DNA of 64,000 nt. Origin: Amphirosellinia nigrospora. Taxonomy: Eukaryota > Ascomycota > Sordariomycetes > Xylariales > Xylariaceae. A program made the position numbers and the translations under genes. The stretch covers positions 992,001 through 1,056,000 of the forward strand of contig SCHM01000005.1 in NCBI GenBank assembly GCA_004123355.1. The letters run 5' to 3'. This document shows, one piece after another, positions 9,645-27,608 of the stretch; within the stretch, counting starts at the first letter, position 1; every line of letters starts with the position of its first letter. A model generated the notes under the pieces. That model was not told where the DNA came from. It searched no databases and saw only the letters and a program-made list of their open reading frames with translations.

Positions 9645-12600
9645 TGGGTCTCGGCTTCTTGCTTTACGTTCACGGCCATAGACTTATTTCACGACTTTTT
9701 GGAGATTTTTTTTGGTGGGAGAAGGGGTTTCTGACTTGGGATATATTGGGCACACAGGGCACGTTAGTGCCGATTAGATGTCAACTATATCGATGGCGCT
9801 GGACGAGCATGGAAATGGATATGGGTAACTGGTTCTTCTGCTATGCAGAGTTAGACGTTGGGCTACCTGTTTGATATCTCAAGTCAGCACTACTATCATT
9901 CACATCCGAACACCAGATTCGCTTCACACATCATTCACCTCCCCAGTCTATGTGCAGTTTTGATGAATACCCCGTAGCATATACGTATGATAAACGCGTA
10001 TGGATCCAATAACTTAGTAATGACAATATCTGGCTGCCTGTAAAACTTGTTTTTGTGTGAGTAATAGGCTTGTAAGATTCCTGTGCCTTCTTTTAATGCT
10101 AATATAGATATCGTTCATTTATTCTTGTGCATTTATTCTTACCCATTCATTCTTGCTTATTCATTCTTGTCTATTTGTTTTTGTTTATTGCCTCTCGGTC
10201 GGTTCCGTGTTTCACAATGCCTAGATTAAATATGCTAATTGAGTCGCCGGACTATTGAGACAGTGGAGGTAATCAAATCTGAATCACTCGTCACTACTCA
10301 TAATCTAAGCAAGATGAAGCGGGGAGTAGCAGTACCTTTTTTACACCTAATATTATAACATGCCCCACGGATAAGCCACATACTTGTCAATAGACACAGG
10401 GCCACGAGCCGCACAACGTCATACATGGCGATGACCTCCGACCCCTCCTCAAAGGCTGAAACGTCTAGCATTAGTCAATATAATCTCATATAGTTTCTCG
10501 AGGGAAGTCTATGACCAAACGTCTGAATATTTTTAAATTCTATCTATAAATCCGAGCTATAGGCGAAGCTACATTGCAGTCAAAATTAGGAAAATAGAGC
10601 CTCTATAGACCCCAAAGATATTATTAGCTGAATAAGACATTGAGTTGCAAGCACTTGAGCACAAGCCTTCAACACATAGTACGTAGCCCGGACCTCCCAA
10701 ACCTTCACCTGCCCAGGCTTTGCTTAGACCCCATAGGGCCCGAGACCCCTTTCAATTCAACAAGCTAGCAGGCTTGCCAACAATAGATGTCAATATAGAT
10801 TCTATACCCAGACTTGCAAAGTCCTGAAAGCCTAGTACCTCGTGTTACATTAGCAGCTTTAGTGTTACAAGGGCTCAGATAGAGGGCTCGGAATAGTTCA
10901 ATTGAGTAATAATCAACTAAGGTGCCAAAGGTGCCATGAAGATCTATCTCCTCTATTTCTCCAGGCACGAGGATTCCTTGCATTTTATGCTCGAATCCTT
11001 CCTAGTATCCTTCCTATAGCTTCGCGGGCCTCCGTAAACTTGTGTAGCCGGAGTCTGTGTGTTTCGGTGATATATCTCAGCTGTAGGTGAGTGACTGAAA
11101 CTCACGATAACCTCATACGATTGCCTCGGCCTCGTAGAGTAGTATTTAGCGAGCTCAGTGATAGATTCGTGTGACATTCATTCAGTAGCACGCACATCAA
11201 ATATTTAACGTCCTCTAGATGAAGCAATAGAGAAGGCATTGGCTTCTACGCTCAACAGGCACTCGAGGATTAATGTGATTTATGATTTATTTAAATATTT
11301 ACAGAAACTGATTGAAACGAAAATCAAGGCGCATTAGGGATCGATGTGTACCTCATACTCGGGGATATTATGTGAAAATAAAAATTTTTTGCACGCGAAC
11401 TATACCTGCGTACATGACATCAGGACCTTACATATCAGGGTATAACGTCTATGTTGATCTCTATTGTTGCGCAGAGGGAGTCTAGGAGTCTTCGAGGGCT
11501 AGTCCCCAGCTATATACAAACAAGTACTTTGTCCCTGGGGTCTCGGGTCCCATGAAGCTTTGCAAAGGAGGCATTGGCGGGTCCGGGTATAGCATCGTGA
11601 AATTACGTAGTGCCCTGTAACACAACAGCAATAGACTAAGAGGCGAGTTTGGTATGTAACGGGGGCTTCTGTATAGGGCGTGGAAAGTGTTCCGATTCTA
11701 TTAATTCTTCTGTAGAGTCAAGCGGGCGGCAAAGTTTTATTCTCTCATTTCCTATTTATGTGTAGTCTCGGTGCCACAGTTCACACTGTCGGTGTTTCTG
11801 GTATCGCTTATTTTTATTGCACAAGGGGAGAAACACACTTTTTCTAGAGATATGATCTCTTATTTGGTATACATGCACAAGTCATGGGCCCGTGCCCTCA
11901 TCCCCCTATTGCCGAGAGTTATTCCGTAGCGTTCCGTAGCACTCGGGGTCCGGAGGCCGGGAGTTACACTCGGACACATACAGATGTGTGTGACATAATA
12001 AAAGGTAGGCGGTGCCTTCTAATCAGATCTAAATGACGGGGACCAGGTATCCGTATGGTATAGACATCTATCGTTGCACGAACGTCTGAGATTATCCCCA
12101 TGGGACTACTGTCTAGCTATATGGCTCTATGTGTAATCCCTTTATTCTTATGCCCCTAAACACGTGGTTCTGGCCCTAAATATATGTTGTTCCATCCGCA
12201 TTTTGTAGAGTTACCGGTATAGGGTTTCTGTTTGACGAAACAGCGAAAAAAAAAAATGAAACCTTATGGTTGAGTGTTATTTTTACTTGTCACCATACGC
12301 ATTTGGTCATTAGCAGGCAGTCGAGGACTTGACTTAATACTATTCTTCTTTTATCTAGATAGCGTTGTGATATAGTGCTGTGGTTTTATTCTGTGACATT
12401 ACTCAAATAAGCTAATCATAGATAGAATGAGAAGAGAATGATCTCGACCCCTATCTCTAACCTCATTGCTAATACCGCCTAATAGCGATTTACGCGGCTA
12501 TTGTGAGTTTTGACGCATCACTACCAGAGGCACGTTGATTGATTGATTGAAATTTCGACATTTATTTACGTCATGAGAGGGACTATCCTACAGTGATCGT

Positions 12601-12741: not shown

Positions 12742-14027
12742 TTAAGTGGAGTATTTAGCAGCCACGATATCGGCCTGGACCATCTTGTCGACATCGTCAG
12801 ACGGGAAGCCAGCCGTGATCACGCCCTCGTAGAACGTGCCCTCTGCACTGTTGCTGTTGTCGCCGCCGATGCGAGGATGATGGCGCCCTCTTGCGTCTGT
12901 GCAGATATCCGGTTAGCACGTCTTATCGAAACAATCTTCTCCGACAACAATCGAATAGAACTCACCATCGTCTCGTATCCCGCAGGCCTCACGCCAGCGT
13001 AGCCCGTCGTCAAGTCACGGTAGAATCACCAACGAGGATCTCCCAGTAGTTGTTCGGCATGCCCTTAACGACGCCGGTAACGAAACGGTGCTCGCGGTCG
13101 GGTTCCCGGGGACAACGCCCGGATCCGAGCCAGCGAAGACGCCATTCTCCAAGTCAGCCATGACCCAAGGTCCATTACCGCTGCCCTTGCCACCAGTGGT
13201 GCCGAGGCCGAAGTACAGAGCCTGCATGTGGGTGTTGCCGGTGTCGTCGTTGCTCACCTCGGCGTTGCCGTAGTCGAAGCAGCAGTTACCGTTGTAGTGC
13301 GTGCCGTCCAGAACCGCGTAGATGCCCTGTGCGGCGTCTCCCGTCGGGATCTTCGACGTCTTGTCGTTGCGGTACCCAATTCCTGGCGAAACGGACACGC
13401 CATAGACAGTTTGCCCGCCGAGCGTCACCTTCGCGGCCGTCGCATCGGCCAGCGCATCATCCCCGCCGGCTGCGGGCCCTGAGGCCGCGCCACCTGGCGG
13501 AGCACGCGTCAGGTCGTTGCCGTTGCCGGACTGATCGTAGATCTAGACACGTAAAACACGTCGTTAGCACGCTCTGCTAAGGTTATTACTTCGTTAAGTC
13601 CAGCATGAACACTAGGTGTTTTGAGAAGGACAGCAAGCTGCCACAAGGTTGGAGCTGGGTCCGATTTCACTCACTATATGGTGGGTTAGCGATGACCGGA
13701 TATCGTGAGAGCAAGGGGAATGCATAGGTTCCCAGGTGCGTGAACATACCAGCAGAGATAACACAAGATGTGTTAGCGCAGAACGAGTCCTGAGACGCGG
13801 CATCGGCTATGCCGCCGGCGGACACAGGCTTGATGTCCTGAGTAGTACCATCTTCACGCTGCACCTGGTAGAGCGGCGAGTCATAGGCAGAAAACAGAGC
13901 GCGGGTAGTGCCTATGGGCGGCTACACAAGGCGCGCCGTTCGAACCGTAGATGTCGCAGGGCCCTGCGGCGACGAACGGCAGCAGGGCGGCAACGATGCC
14001 GGGTGCGAGGTTACGTGATGAAGGCAT
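12742..14027 (-). pseudogene. abfB: GH54 alpha-L-arabinofuranosidase (AbfB catalytic domain), frame-broken
   Basis: This is a secreted enzyme that removes arabinose side chains from arabinoxylan and arabinan. The start at 14027 opens a signal peptide (MPSSRNLAPGIVAALLPFVA) followed by AGPCDIYGSNGAPCVAAH, the GH54 N-terminus. One extra base then shifts the frame. Next come SPLYQVQREDGTTQDIKPVS and AGGIADAASQDSFCANTSC (another frame), then an intron to about 13545. The catalytic core reads IYDQSGNGNDLTRAPPGG, AVLDGTHYNGNCCFDYGNAE and GNGPWVMADLENGVF. Frame changes follow near 13100 and 13020, there is an intron at about 12910-12965, and one G is missing in EGAIIL-GIGGDNSN. The end reads VQADIVAAKYST. 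It stops where the C-terminal arabinose-binding (CBM42) domain would start in AbfB, so it is catalytic-domain only. Confidence 0.8.
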
Positions 14028-20890: not shown

Positions 20891-21883
20891 GATTCGTGAA
20901 ACAGGAGATATAGGGTTTATTTAATCGTACACTATAGTTTCTGAAAAACCAATATGATGTCCGAAAAAGATTATAAAATTGCTGTTCCACAAGATGACGG
21001 TGTTATTTATAGAGCTAGCTAGTAAGTGCATGTGTTGTTCGAGCAGCAGCTCTTTGACTCATCATGCGATTACTGACATCATCGACAGCGCGCCCGCCTT
21101 ACTTCTGATAACGAAAGTCTATCATCGAGAAAAAGTATCACTGGCTTCCAGAGACAAAAGAGAGTGGTGATTCTATGTTAATAGAGGAAACGTCCGATAA
21201 GCCCAATATAATGACGGATCAGACATGTGGTCTGTGCATAGACTGGGCGCTAGTGCAGCTGTAGATTGTCGGTGATTACTCGGGAAGCTCCGCGCTGAGC
21301 CACGCCACGCGCCATGCAGGTCTGATTCGCACACATAAGATTTCACCAGGTCGGATTCAGGGACATCACGTTCTGGTAAATAGACATCAAAGTAGCCGTA
21401 TTCAGATGCATCCCTACCACACCTCTTGGACGCTCCATATTTCACCCAATTTGAGTTAGAACTAGAGCAGCCAAGAAGTAGAGGTTGAAAAATCCAGAAA
21501 TGACAGTCTAGTTAATTCTACGCAAAAAGCTACAAGAGTACTTAAATAAAAAAAACCACAAGAGGTATTTCGACGTAAAAAAAAAAGCGGTCGATAGCTA
21601 GAGATGCGATAAAGCCAAAAAATAACAGTGTTTTAATAAAAATAGCAAATGCGTAGTGTTTTAACGATGATTGAAGGTGGTTAGAGATGCGTAGTGGTAG
21701 TGGTGGTGCAATCTGTTATTTTGGTGGTTTTGGTGGCAACGAGCCACCTTGACCGTTATTTTACGTGTTTCTCTTTTGAAGAGGTGAATTCAATTGAGGT
21801 GTGCTGGGGTGTCTATACAAATTGGGTTAGAATGGGGTGTGCGGTGGGCTTCTTGACTAGGTAGAAATGGACCTGAGATTTCA
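20891..21883. other. AT-rich low-complexity stretch
   Basis: This stretch contains A-runs (for example 21548-21557, 21578-21587) and a GGTGGT-rich tract near 21670-21740. No gene is recognised. Confidence 0.5.
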
Positions 21884-22204
21884 CTATCTGCCTTTACCCT
21901 TCGACTCTTTCGGAGAGATATCGAAATCCGGTCGCGAGCCATCTTCCTTTTTGCCTCGACACGACATCACGTCATGTAGGAGCTTGGGCCCTACAGCCTT
22001 GGCGGGCCACTCACTCACCCTGGACCATATCGGATTTCTAACTTGACCTCTAATGCCCCAGTTTCGCGAGTAGTCTATATGCATCGCCACGAATATAAGC
22101 GACATCAGAAGGTCCTCACATGATGAGCTGTCATCATTTCCGGCCTCTGCGAGGGTCGGTGTCGAGATGGCAGGTCTGCCCTCAAGGTCGAAGGGTACTT
22201 GTAA
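21884..22204 (-). CDS. Possible exon of an unrecognised protein
   Basis: A 106-codon open frame runs on the minus strand from just after a stop at 22205-22207 to the stop at 21884. It contains PFDLEGRPAISTPTLAEAGN, SCEDLLMSLIFVAMHIDYSR and PDFDISPKESKGKGR. Composition is protein-like, with an acidic-Ser segment and a basic end, and an acceptor-like CAAG lies near 22198. I do not recognise a family, and an upstream exon was not found. It could be chance or a remnant. Confidence 0.25.
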   Translation of the reverse strand, partial: LQVPFDLEGRPAISTPTLAEAGNDDSSSCEDLLMSLIFVAMHIDYSRNWGIRGQVRNPIWSRVSEWPAKAVGPKLLHDVMSCRGKKEDGSRPDFDISPKESKGKGR

Positions 22205-22611: not shown

Positions 22612-22962
22612 ATGACGACTCTTTCCGTCGAAACTATCGTCGGCATTATCGGTGTCATCGTCAGCCTGCCCCCAACAATTCTGGTTTTGATTCGATTTAT
22701 GAAGCGCCGTTACCAGGCACGTCGAGGTACCGCCTACCGCTATACGTGATCGCCTTAATTCCCTAACCCATCAATTTGTATAGGCGAGGTTCTACCTTAC
22801 ACAACGACCCAACTTCGCCCACCACATTCAGGTCGGCATTACTTCCAAGCTATCAATGGGATCCCTATCAACTACCCAGGCTACGGCTTCGTCGAAGAGC
22901 AGTACTCACTACACCAAACGGTTACGTTTAGACGTCCGAGCCCATACCATCATCCTCCCTAG
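22612..22962 (+). CDS. Small single-pass membrane protein, paralogue A
   Basis: Two exons (22612-22726 and 22784-22962) flank a 57-base phase-1 intron with donor GTACCG, CTAAC branch site and acceptor TATAG. They give a 97-residue protein. The start is MTTLSVE, chosen because paralogues B and C start at the same point; another in-frame ATG lies two codons upstream (22606). Residues 8-28 are a hydrophobic helix (IVGIIGVIVSLPPTILVLI) followed by a basic stop (RFMKRRYQARR), which predicts N-outside, C-inside. The tail is Pro/Tyr/His-rich: LPYTTTQLRPPH, then HYFQAINGIPINYPGYGF, then VEEQYSL and a SPYHHPP end. No known domain is recognised. The frame and splice sites are intact although the surroundings are AT-rich and gene-poor. 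See paralogues at 25701 and 27608. Confidence 0.7.
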
Positions 22963-24284
22963 ATGGCTGTTAGGAAAGCATCATAAATTTCTAATGATAG
23001 AATGACTTACCATGCGTAAAGTGTAAGTTATCGATATCAAACACACCAGCTTCGACGTCTGAAGCCTTGTGCAGAACCTAGTTGGCCAATATGGTGTAAT
23101 GCAAAGGTAAATAGTTGGCGAACCAATATAGACGTTGAGTTGCCCACATATTTGGCAAGGGCCCGTTAAGCTTAGTTTTCATGCAACGGGCGTGCATGAC
23201 GTCATCCGTATTACGACCATCAGATGGGATCTCTCGCCATTCCTAACACTCGGAGAATATGGCCCTAGTTCGTTGTTTTCGTTGGATCGAAATTCAAGTC
23301 TAATAGAGGAATAGATAGACAAGCGATAAATGGGTAGATGTACAACATAGTGTAGGTTCTGCGAGGCATGACTGGGCAATCGCAATATTAAGATAGGAGG
23401 CAGTGAGTTACCTAGGATAAGCACAACTTACAATGACCAATTCAATCATATCGCTTTGCGATGCTGTACTTCGATTTTACCTAGAAAGTTATTATCCTAA
23501 CTCGCACACTAGCACCTACGATACTTATGGACATAGTTGCCTGACTTCTTTGCCCTAGCTGCCTGTCATCAAAGATAAATAGGATGTTGGTATATTGCAC
23601 GAGTAGACGTATATTTAAGCTCGTAGGGTACGGGAAGCCATGCTGGCTTATGGAGGGTAGCCGGGAGCCGGTCTCGGCAGGGGTGGCGCGTTCTATTTGT
23701 CCCACTCTGGACTCCGCATCGCCCGTCAGTGGCTCACAGACATTTTGGGGTAGAGTAAATTCTCACGATAGTAAGAACTTGGAGGGCATAACACCTCTAC
23801 GGCATATAAATCATCGGGGCAGCGCTACAACACTTGCGCGCAAGTCTCGGGGTCCCATTATATTAACAAATCCCAGAGAATATGGACGAAGTATCCCTAA
23901 ATCGGTTACACGTTCTTATATATTTTATCAGCGTGTTTAGCGTCGAATACGTAGTATGAAACGGGCTTCGAGGTTTGTGATCTTTTATTTGCCTGTGCGG
24001 ATGCCAACTTTCATACTATCGATTGATAGATAATGGATCGTTGCTTCTACGTTCAAAGTTTCGTGTTTAGAAAGAACAATTACGTATGTATAGGTAGGGG
24101 ACTATGCTGGAAATTGGCGGACTCCCTACTAACTGTGGCTACCCATATGTCGAGTAATACCTAGGTACCTTCTATAAGTAGACACCAGCACACAAACACA
24201 CTCAGGCTGCCATCTCGTTCACTTATTCGCTGCTGCTGGGGTACGCGAATATTAGTGTGCATTATGGATGCCAAGGATTAGGTA
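22963..24284. other. AT-rich stretch, nothing recognised
   Basis: The open frame at 23584-23940 (118 codons, +) has no motif. A perfect TACCTAGGTA palindrome lies at 24158-24167. Confidence 0.5.
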
Positions 24285-24610
24285 TACAGGTCTCCAGGAT
24301 GATAATTGTGTAGCGCGGCGCTAGGGCTTGTACTGGCAGGGGATTTTTGGTAGGAATTTTGCTACGTCTACTTATCGACCAGGGGTTGGTGAGTGGCAAA
24401 AAGGCTTCGAGACTGATCAACAGCTATTTTTCTATAACAGCCTCGTGAGTAGCAGTATTCTTACTCTTCTAGTTTTAGCACGACGCTACACGATTATCAT
24501 CCTGGAGACCTGTACTTGAATTCATATAACAGCCTTGTGAGTATCAGTACTCTTGCTCTTCTACCTAGTTTTAGCACGGCGCTACACAATTATCATCCTG
24601 GGGACCTGTA
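24285..24610. repeat. Direct and inverted repeat cluster
   Basis: Two diverged direct copies (24433-24514 and 24525-24610) share TATAACAGCC...GTGAGTA, TTTTAGCACG and CGCTACAC-ATTATCATCCTG. An inverted copy of their 3' third lies at 24285-24323 (GGTCTCCAGGATGATAATTG). No open frame spans them. This may be a remnant of a small non-autonomous element. Confidence 0.65.
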
Positions 24611-24736
24611 GTTACTGTAAGTATTAGCAGCGATTCTCCCAACAACCAAGACAAACCGTTCACTCTAGCCCCACAATCGCCCGTCCCGAAAAACTGGCCA
24701 ACACGGGAAAGATACCCAACTTTACACTAGTGTACC

Positions 24737-25233
24737 TACATACATAGTCTATGCCCGGAGAAAGGGACCTTGTCAGGTATTTGGGGCGCGCTAGCTGACG
24801 GTCCACCAACGACCCACCGCGCAAGAAGTATCTCGTTTTACGGTTACTGGTATAAACCCATGTTAGAGGCACCTAGCAGTGTATTATGGGCCAACAAGGT
24901 TTCGTGCAAGGCTTAGGCAAAGGTTTGGACAAGGGCTTCGACAAGGTACGCTTAGGCCAGGCGATAGCTTTTGCGCCGAGTTTTGGTGTAGGTACCGTAA
25001 TCTAACCGCAAAACGAGATACTTCTTGCGCGGTGGGTCGTTGGTGGACCGTCAACTAGCGCGCCCCAAAATACCTGACAAGGTGCCTTTCTCTAGGCACA
25101 GACTATGTAGAATTACGGTACTTACACCAAAACTCGGCGCAAAAGCTATCGCCTGGCCCAAGCGTACCTTGTCGAAGCCCTTGTCCAAATCTTTGCCTAA
25201 GCCCTTGCACGAAACCTTGTTGGCCCATAATAC
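24737..25233. repeat. Compound inverted repeat, order X-Y-X'-Y'
   Basis: Block X (about 24737-24846) recurs inverted as X' (about 25003-25110). Block Y (about 24881-25000) recurs inverted as Y' (about 25112-25233). Shared tracts are long and nearly identical, for example ACGACCCACCGCGCAAGAAG in X and its complement in X'. The order is X-Y-X'-Y', not the simple palindrome X-Y-Y'-X'. Y contains a 39-codon frame (24886-25005), but the equivalent in Y' is frame-shifted, so the repeat is probably not coding. A fragment of X (TGGACCGTCAAC) recurs near 25384. Confidence 0.75.
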
Positions 25234-25493
25234 ATAACTAGGAACCTAAAACAGGGGGTTCAACCAGTACACCATGGGTACTTAGGCAGGTGACGGTTCA
25301 GGTCCAAGGTTGAGTGATTGGTCGAAAAAAGTTGTTCCTGTCGGTTGCTGCAGGGGGCTAATACTACAGGTATTCATTACCTAGTGGACCGTCAACGGTA
25401 ACCTACCTAAATCAGTAAAATGTTGTTGCCGGCATGTGGCTGTGTAGCTGACCTATTTAACAGTCCAATCGCGATGTCTTTGCTAGGCTTTAG

Positions 25494-25565
25494 ACTGACG
25501 CTTTTTACTGACTCGTCACTGACTGACGCTTTTCGCTAACTGACGCTTTTCACAAACTATATAAA
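25494..25565 (+). promoter_or_regulatory. Tandem ACTGACGCTTTT motifs plus TATA box
   Basis: Three exact copies of ACTGACGCTTTT lie at 25494-25505, 25522-25533 and 25539-25550, followed by TATATAAA at 25558-25565, about 135 bases upstream of membrane paralogue B. The layout looks like an upstream activating array; this is inference. Confidence 0.5.
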
Positions 25566-25700
25566 CATCTCGCCGGCACAAACACCTTGATAAATAATAA
25601 AACGATTCTTTATGTGTTATTGAAGTAATCTAATTTTTACATAGTTTACTAGATTAATATTTACGCATACTTCCTGACTACGGCCCTACGAATATACAAT

Positions 25701-26057
25701 ATGGTAACTTTATCTGTCGAGGCTATCATCGCTATCATTGCTGTAATCGTAGGCTTGCCTCCAACAGTTTTGGTCTTTGTTCAATATATTAAACGCCGTC
25801 GACAATCTTTTCGAGGTACTATCTTGGAATTATATTGCTCGTTACTATCATTTGTAGTTGAATTGATTCCCTGACATGCATGTATAGGCCGGGATCTACC
25901 CTACGCTCTACCCCAACTTCGCTCCCCACATCATTTACATGGGCAATACTTCTATCCTGCCAACGCTATGCCCAATGGTGAGCCAGCATACGGCTCGGTC
26001 GAAGAACAGTACATTCTTATGTATAGACGTTCAAGCCCATACCATCCTCCTCCCTAA
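25701..26057 (+). CDS. Small single-pass membrane protein, paralogue B
   Basis: Two exons (25701-25815 and 25888-26057) flank a 72-base phase-1 intron with donor GTACTA, CTGAC branch site and acceptor TATAG. They give 94 residues. Exon 1 is exactly as long as that of paralogue A (115 nt). The protein starts MVTLSVE, has a hydrophobic helix IIAIIAVIVGLPPTVLVFV and then a basic stop QYIKRRRQSFR. The tail is GRDLPYALPQLRSPHH, then GQYFYPANAMPNGEPAYG, then SVEEQYIL and SSPYHPPP. The conserved tail motifs shared with A are LPY, QLR, YF, EEQY and SPYH-PP. It has a TATA box and a tandem motif array upstream. The orientation is the same as A and opposite to C. Confidence 0.75.
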
Positions 26058-27050
26058 AGCTTTTATACGGAGAAGATGACAGATTCATATGCTAGCGACA
26101 CGTAACATGGGCAGAAGTATGTATATAAGCCATTCTTTTATTTAGGTGCGTACACCAACCCCGCGACTGATGTTCTCTAATCTTGAATTATGGGCTAATA
26201 TGACATAGTTAATAAAGCATGTGGCCGGAGAAATAAGATAGATCTCGAGCCGCTCGGACATTCAGTGGCATCTCTATTTCTCTCCAGTCTTGCGGTCTTG
26301 TTAACCAGTTCTTGGATAGAAGCATGAGTACATGGTATATGTTGGAACGAAGATCTCCTGCGCCGGCTACATCTATAACATTTGTTCATAGTCCATAGCT
26401 ATCACTCTATCGCTGTGTTTCTAAGCGGCTCTTAGCTTATTCATAAGCATCGGGCCTCGTTACACAGCGTTAAGAATGATACTTGCGGCACTACGAGAGA
26501 GGGAGAGGGAGGACAGAGGCAGCCTGAAGAAAGACAACGAGTTGGGGATTTCACCTCCTGTATGTAACCATATGAATGTATCACCATGTCCAAAAGACCC
26601 ATCAGTCAGGATCAAGCTATGTTATGTTACGTTGACCTCGTGTTAGATACGGCTTCACCTTTCAGAAGCCGGTGGTAGCCCCGGCTCATGCTTTAAGGGT
26701 CTAAACTCAATTAATTGTCACTCTAGCTATGTGCACTCGCCACCATGCACATTTACCTTCAATTCCCTTGTTTTTCGTCTGCTCGAAATATGTAGACAGT
26801 TGGAGAGCAAAATGGCGTGAAGTATTCAAGAATTGATACTAAGTGATAACTTAGCCGACAGGGATTCTCACGCTAACGCCTAACTAGCGCCCCACCGGAG
26901 GGGCGGGGGGTGGGTTTATCATTGAGGATTCACCCCTCGTAACAAAGCCACCAGCAAGAGATCCTACCCGAAAAGCATCGATGACCCAGATAACGTCAAC
27001 ACCTTCAATTCATAAATACCACCGAGGCATCTAGTCTTATATACTCTGAT
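26058..27050. other. Intergenic, nothing recognised
   Basis: This region contains a purine-rich patch (26495-26520, GAGAGGGAGAGGGAGG) and a G/C-rich short tract at 26890-26915. No gene is seen. Confidence 0.5.
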
Positions 27051-27608
27051 TTAAAAAAAAAATCCTAAAAAAGAAGCGCAATTATTTCCCATAACGCCAA
27101 ACGCGTGACCAACTCTACATCTATACGAGTTCACACCAGACGATGTTAGCCAATCAAGTCCTTCATATAATTTCAAGTGTAGATGCTGTACCAGAGATGA
27201 TAACCTACATTTTACATCATGACTATTTTCTGTCATAAGAACTCGTGATCTCATCAACCTAGGGATCATGTCGAAGGTTTGTGTGATAGTTTGCCTTCGT
27301 GAATATTGTTCTTCGAGGAGATAATAGACTGGCTCGCTATTAAAGACTCCGTTGATGTCGTGGAAGTTTTGTGCATTGTATGGGGGGTAGAGTTGGGATC
27401 TTATTTGGAATCTAGTCTCGCCTATATAATAGCTAGGTTAGGGAAACAGAGCAACTATGTATAATAGAAATAAACGTTATAGTGCCTAGATCATACCTCG
27501 TGCTTGGCAAAAGCGGTTTATATATCGGACGAGCACCAAGACTATTGGAGGCAAGCCTACAACGACGCCAACGATAGCGACAATGGCCTCGACGGAGAGA
27601 GTTGTCAT
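27051..27608 (-). CDS. Small membrane protein, paralogue C (longer C-terminus)
   Basis: Two exons on the minus strand (27497-27608 and 27051-27421) flank a 75-base phase-1 intron with donor GTATGA, CTAAC branch site and acceptor TATAG. They give 160 residues. The start MTTLSVEAIVAIVGVVVG is nearly identical to A and B; it is followed by LPPIVLVLVRYINRFCQARG. Exon 1 is one codon shorter than in A and B. The tail retains QLYPPYNAQNFHDINGVF, then LEEQYSRRQTITQTF, aligned to A. It then departs: instead of the SPYHPP stop, it reads about 65 further residues (from IPRLMRSRVLMTEN) to a stop at 27051. Loss of the ancestral stop is likely. The intact frame over both exons argues for a recent or maintained gene. 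Confidence 0.6.

Follow-up and report, generated by a model that had tools for sequence, protein, structure and literature searches.

Three described fungal systems come closest to the genes discussed here. In Neurospora, 670 lineage-specific genes (LSGs) are reported to aggregate near telomeres together with HET-domain genes (PMC10684091). In Neurospora sitophila, Spk-1 is described as a killer of 134 residues, predicted to be a membrane protein, with many diverged homologs and two predicted membrane segments (PMC8092558). With regard to the wtf drivers of Schizosaccharomyces pombe, exon 1 is presented as the more conserved part of genes that have at least six exons, and is described as antidote-specific, while Wtf4 has six predicted membrane segments (PMC7591262). 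The locus compared with them here lies in a window of 64,000 nucleotides of Amphirosellinia nigrospora, which is the whole stretch of DNA that was analysed (contig SCHM01000005.1, positions 992,001 to 1,056,000). It comprises three genes, A (22612-22962, + strand), B (25701-26057, + strand) and C (27608-27051, - strand), which are joined by a fourth, D, on another contig. These genes appear to form an old and small paralogous family, in which each member has a single N-terminal membrane anchor and a faster-evolving cytosolic tail in an N-out/C-in orientation (reverse signal anchor), a reading that is considered rather probable.

A family with a shared first exon and intron

The similarity among the copies is far above chance level. 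The 48.1-Mb assembly, in 11 contigs, was searched with an exon-1 consensus, and all four candidates obtained at E<=10 were scored, namely A (3.8e-15), C (4.5e-12), B (1.6e-11) and D (1.8e-4), with E values that are flattered since the consensus was built from the copies themselves. The same four places are returned by a query with D and by a blended generic query, and they are the only family places in the genome among the best candidates scored, a restriction through which more distant members may escape. The exon-2 peptide of A finds A, B (E 2.3e-7) and C (E 0.00185), that of B finds B and A, and the DNA of A matches B at E 3.9e-10. In the alignment, A is 57% identical to B and 49% identical to C, and M1, T3-E7, L19-P21, L24-V25 and EEQY are invariant in A, B and C. 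Chance open frames are ruled out by the exon-2 cross-matches, the exon-1 similarity and the ratios of nonsynonymous to synonymous substitution (dN/dS) given below, and a recent tandem duplication is rejected because the exon-1 dS amounts to 0.72-1.35.

Gene A, on the + strand, consists of a 115-nt exon 1 that encodes the membrane helix and the basic segment (22612..22726), a 57-nt phase-1 intron (22727..22783; GTACCG...CTAAC...TATAG) and exon 2 with the stop codon (22784..22962), whose tail contains LPY, QLR, EEQY and SPYHHPP; the spliced product has 97 residues. Gene B, also on the + strand, has the same arrangement, with a 115-nt exon 1 (25701..25815), a 72-nt phase-1 intron (25816..25887; GTACTA...CTGAC...TATAG) and exon 2 with the stop codon (25888..26057; LPY, QLR, EEQY and SPYHPPP), yielding 94 residues. 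Exon 1 of A and B aligns without any indel, and their exon-2 lengths are 9 nt apart. Gene C, on the - strand, has an exon 1 of 112 nt (27497..27608), a 75-nt phase-1 intron (27422..27496; GTATGA...CTAAC...TATAG) and an exon 2 that was delimited as an open frame (27051..27421), homologous to A and B until EEQY (end 27303). Gene D (G000:C6, from 7570289) begins with MALPTEAVIALIGVLVALPPAVLVL and keeps exon 1 and, within about one codon of the place seen in the other copies, a 66-nt phase-1 intron, the splicing of which gives 69 residues; its donor is a putative one, picked with the splice sites of A, B and C in view.

A first-pass annotation of the window had proposed a family of three small single-pass membrane proteins of 94-97 residues with a shared intron. 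Its coordinates, its exon lengths of 115, 115 and 112 nt and its phase-1 intron proved correct on splicing, as did, on alignment, the motifs it had listed (MxTLSVExI, LPPxxLV and a basic segment in all three, LPY, QLR, EEQY and SPYH-PP in A and B, and EEQY in C). The three window genes are retained, but the fourth member, on contig C6, and the apparent decay of C had been missed, and the proposed length applies to A and B, whereas the open frame of C reaches 160 residues after splicing.

All four copies have the phase-1 intron, with a CTRAY branch site whose A is located 12-17 nt before the acceptor, and D has an additional CTRAY site farther from it; these branch sites are of the fungal type. 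The alignment of the introns of A, B and C beats 300 of 300 shuffles in each of the three pairs. All four intron lengths (57, 72, 75 and 66 nt in A, B, C and D) are multiples of three, which has a chance of 1 in 81 and was spotted post hoc. An in-frame stop lies inside each of the introns, and retention would therefore yield a protein of 40-57 residues devoid of the tail.

Exon 1 is clearly under purifying selection. The first-pass annotation had suggested that the frame is kept under selection and had taken beforehand a dN/dS near 1 as refuting; by the Nei-Gojobori method, the exon-1 ratio among A, B and C is well below 1 (0.29 for A-B, 0.16 for A-C and 0.29 for B-C), with absolute values that are rough because dS is high. 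Out of 1000 bootstraps, a synonymous proportion (pS) no higher than the nonsynonymous one (pN) was obtained in 7, 0 and 3 for these pairs; the comparisons, including those with D, are not independent. When exon 1 is compared with D, pS/pN is 0.70/0.39 for A, 0.66/0.34 for B and 0.75/0.39 for C, pN being lower than pS in all three, and pS<=pN was found in 4, 3 and 0 of 1000 bootstraps, respectively. Exon 2, for which C was used until shortly past EEQY, evolves faster than exon 1, with dN/dS of 0.62 for A-B, 0.41 for A-C and 0.49 for B-C.

At the protein level, each of the four copies has a single hydrophobic stretch, in keeping with the single-pass architecture proposed earlier, and the Kyte-Doolittle value peaks at 2.62-2.96 in a 19-residue window that covers residues 9-27 in A, B and C and 8-26 in D. 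In all copies, no K or R and one D or E are found before the helix, and 4-6 K or R in the 15 residues that follow it. For exon 1 of A, with the sequences of the three window genes supplied, AlphaFold2 predicts a helix at residues 6-37 with a mean pLDDT (predicted local distance difference test) of 84.3. The basic flank of a membrane helix faces the cytosol, according to the positive-inside rule, and the N-out/C-in orientation is predicted on this ground, since basic residues follow the helix and none precede it. A membrane helix at about residues 6-30 with the basic patch behind it would thereby place the tail in the cytosol, and the N-terminus on the outer or luminal side, in the cells in which the genes are presumably expressed. 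In the four-copy alignment, only G, A or S occurs at positions 11, 14 and 18, and P20-P21 are invariant, a pattern that suggests packing and a kink of the anchor; the small residues together with the double proline might allow the helices to pack into dimers or higher assemblies. With regard to the tails, Yxx[V/L]EEQY is found in A, B and C (YGFV, YGSV and YYLL), and RRxSPYHxPP in A and B. The Yxx[V/L] part is reminiscent of a YxxPhi sorting signal, and, judging from such motifs, the cytosolic tail would probably recruit a partner or direct sorting.

Divergent tails and flanking DNA

Past EEQY, the frame of C continues for 83 further codons (252 nt, 27051-27302) that have no protein likeness to the other copies and a codon score of -0.190 nats per codon, as compared with a non-coding mean of -0.100. 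The DNA of this extension aligns with the end of A solely through frame-changing gaps. When compared with the DNA behind the stop codon of A, one place scores above 993 of 1000 shuffles and above 998 of 1000 pieces drawn at random from the window, and a second, co-linear place farther on in the 3' flank of A has a p of 0.01 (300 shuffles); no match above chance was obtained with the DNA downstream of B, where 891 of 1000 shuffles reach the score. The extension is probably former 3' non-coding DNA that was entered after a frame change, as this modest signal suggests. The tail of D is unrelated to the other tails, and as a query against the whole genome it finds D only.

In the 250 bases upstream of the genes, four of the six pairs are at shuffle level (p 0.27-1.0), B-C is marginal (p 0.03) and B-D stands out, with none of 300 shuffles reaching the score. 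Downstream from the frame ends, none of the six pairs stands out, the score being reached by 68 to 229 of 300 shuffles. Since the flanks show little homology, conservation appears to be mostly confined to the genes. An upstream element of gene B (GTAATCTAATTTTTACAT, 25625..25642, + strand) lies 59-76 bases before the ATG and has a counterpart 125-142 bases before that of D, with 17 of 18 bases in common (GTAATCWAATTTTTACAT). As the best 18-base match, 17 was not reached in any of 400 trials with unrelated 250-base pieces (largest 16) or in any of 400 shuffles (largest 15). A search of the whole genome at no more than one mismatch returns the B and D places only, with a pattern that was derived from both. 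No other match is present in the window at up to three mismatches, and A and C are therefore devoid of the element.

Genomic surroundings

The surroundings of the window genes had been described as repeat-rich and AT-rich. The richness in repeats was borne out, but the AT-richness is only mild, as from 22 to 30 kb the four 2-kb bins have a GC content of 44-47%, whereas it amounts to 48-53% in 21 of the 28 remaining ones and is lower still in those at 10-12 and 16-18 kb. Between the genes, 24284-24514 is an element resembling a miniature inverted-repeat transposable element (MITE); its near-full-length places outside the window number at least 22, at 74-90% identity. The segment 24739-25269 is a composite fold-back element with main arms of 46-92 nt that are 84-97% complementary, and partial copies of it occur on contigs C1, C4, C9 and C10. 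The 2-kb bin 24001-26000 has the highest TpA/ApT ratio of the window, 1.36, as repeat-induced point mutation (RIP) might leave. Low-copy repeats are found at 23542-23962, with the best relative on C6 (86%), and at 21347-21860, with the best relative on C4 (82%) and weaker partial ones on C1 and C10. The 167 bases at 21891-22057 are 98% identical to G000:C5:712588-712754 and represent a young duplicate.

In a Pfam scan of 20 open frames from the window, seven match at E<=0.001, and the families above the cut-off include alpha-L-arabinofuranosidase (13015-13542), CobW, Mob1-like, a fungal transcription-factor domain and MOSC; the matches to a RING finger and a Zn2-Cys6 cluster fall slightly short of it. 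Neither tRNAs nor Rfam families were found when the window was scanned for them. Scans of three open frames around D gave ankyrin repeats in the preceding frame, and SPX and anion-transporter domains in the two that follow. Farther downstream, at a distance of about 7.4 kb from D, begin two 1-kb bins with a GC content of 19 and 14%, resembling an AT-rich stretch, of at least 2 kb, affected by RIP. DNA located about 1.2 kb downstream of D matches window positions 10849-11176 with 78% identity in an alignment of 344 bases.

Readings of the family and described systems

The family had been called new-looking, which stands insofar as no accepted match was found in Pfam, NCBIfam, PDB, viral contigs or prokaryote genomes, while on the fungal side the searches cover this genome only. 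Pfam gave no match above the cut-off for any of the four copies, and NCBIfam none for A, B and D. In PDB the best E value was 0.27, with A, and the A-B-C profile had no match at E<=1; kinship with a PDB chain is rejected, as no chain was found at E<=0.001. No relative was found among the IMG/VR viral contigs or the GTDB prokaryote genomes, which are, like NCBIfam, non-fungal collections. Adeno_E3_CR2 (PF02439), whose scores of 16.1 and 13.8 bits, in B and C only, fall short of the cut-off of 36, was discarded as a matter of composition; this family has a hydrophobic stretch with basic residues behind it, as do the copies described here. Text searches of the literature found no papers with peptide words resembling the protein start, and none on fungal NLRs with small membrane proteins.

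Several findings weigh against an old family in which both the anchor and the tail serve a purpose. Selection on exon 2 is weak, with pS<=pN in 60, 27 and 59 of 1000 bootstraps for A-B, A-C and B-C. The tail of C looks degenerate, that of D is without any of the motifs of A and B, and a pattern as short as Yxx[V/L] could arise by chance. Moreover, the codon-composition score is -0.018 for A, -0.079 for B, -0.036 for C until EEQY and -0.007 for D; none of the four lies above the non-coding 95th percentile (-0.000), while the 5th percentile of coding pieces (-0.031) is exceeded by A and D only, so that the score is weak for A, B and D. The coding case thus rests on homology, selection and splice signals, because the score separates none of A, B and D from non-coding DNA.

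The clear conservation of the anchor would also be expected if the family were already deposited as uncharacterised 'hypothetical proteins' that occur widely across Pezizomycotina, had a housekeeping role in an organelle membrane (for instance, as a small accessory subunit of a membrane complex) and were new only to the libraries searched. As the only fungal genome searched is this one, such an explanation is a serious contender, albeit at somewhat below even chances, and it overlaps with the reading of an old anchored family, which leaves the distribution open. Similar N-termini presumably exist among fungal hypothetical proteins. However, tails that evolve faster or have been replaced, a degenerate C and a dispersed D are unlike a conserved complex subunit, and no PDB chain supports one at the above threshold. 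With regard to transposons, repeats lie between the copies, and a likeness exists between window 10849-11176 and the DNA 1.2 kb downstream of D, as might be the case if the copies were remnants of transposon proteins or passengers of the neighbouring repeats. This is very improbable: the copies occupy four places only, as compared with at least 22 outside the window for the neighbouring MITE-like repeat, their frame is selected, their flanks are mostly unalike and none has a Pfam transposon match, the kind of match that the first-pass annotation had put forward as refuting. A transposon fragment is therefore rejected, although the search for termini of an enclosing element extended no further than the general repeat search.

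A conflict family of the spore-killing, allorecognition or poison-antidote type, acting through membrane disruption or assembly, would account for the small size, the membrane helix, a conserved exon 1 with a variable remainder, the clustering among repeats and the decay of one paralog. Spk-1 (PMC8092558) and the conservation of wtf exon 1 (PMC7591262) offer analogies by which a conflict or recognition role is possible. It is nonetheless unlikely, since Spk-1 has two and Wtf4 six predicted membrane segments against one here, and the purifying selection seen in exon 1 does not point to conflict in particular. HET-domain matches number at least 151 in this genome and are absent from all 14 control genomes, as would suit a filamentous ascomycete. 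Among those listed, none falls within the window and the closest to D is about 33 kb off. Equally doubtful is a more elaborate version, in which a kinked, self-assembling anchor exon would be combined with interchangeable, fast-evolving tails (those of A and B, that of C rebuilt from former 3' non-coding DNA and the unrelated one of D) that serve self/non-self recognition or conflict.

If the old family of anchored proteins is confined to a few species, it would add to the orphan genes of fungi, and if widespread, it would be an overlooked conserved family. Small membrane proteins split by an intron easily escape gene callers. With four members, a selected anchor and tails that were lost or exchanged, the family offers a compact example, open to test, of the ways in which fungi maintain and change such proteins. 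The Neurospora LSGs (PMC10684091) are alike in having few or no recognisable domains and in belonging to a filamentous fungus, but they lie near telomeres with HET genes, whereas the window ends about 477 kb from the closer contig end and contains no listed HET match. Spk-1 resembles the copies described here in being small, membrane-predicted, without a known domain and accompanied by diverged homologs; it is set apart through its two predicted segments and 134 residues, as compared with one segment and 69-97 residues here (160 in the frame of C). The wtf genes share with this family a first exon that is the more conserved part, but there this exon is antidote-specific and six segments are predicted, whereas here exon 1 encodes the membrane anchor itself and there is a single segment.

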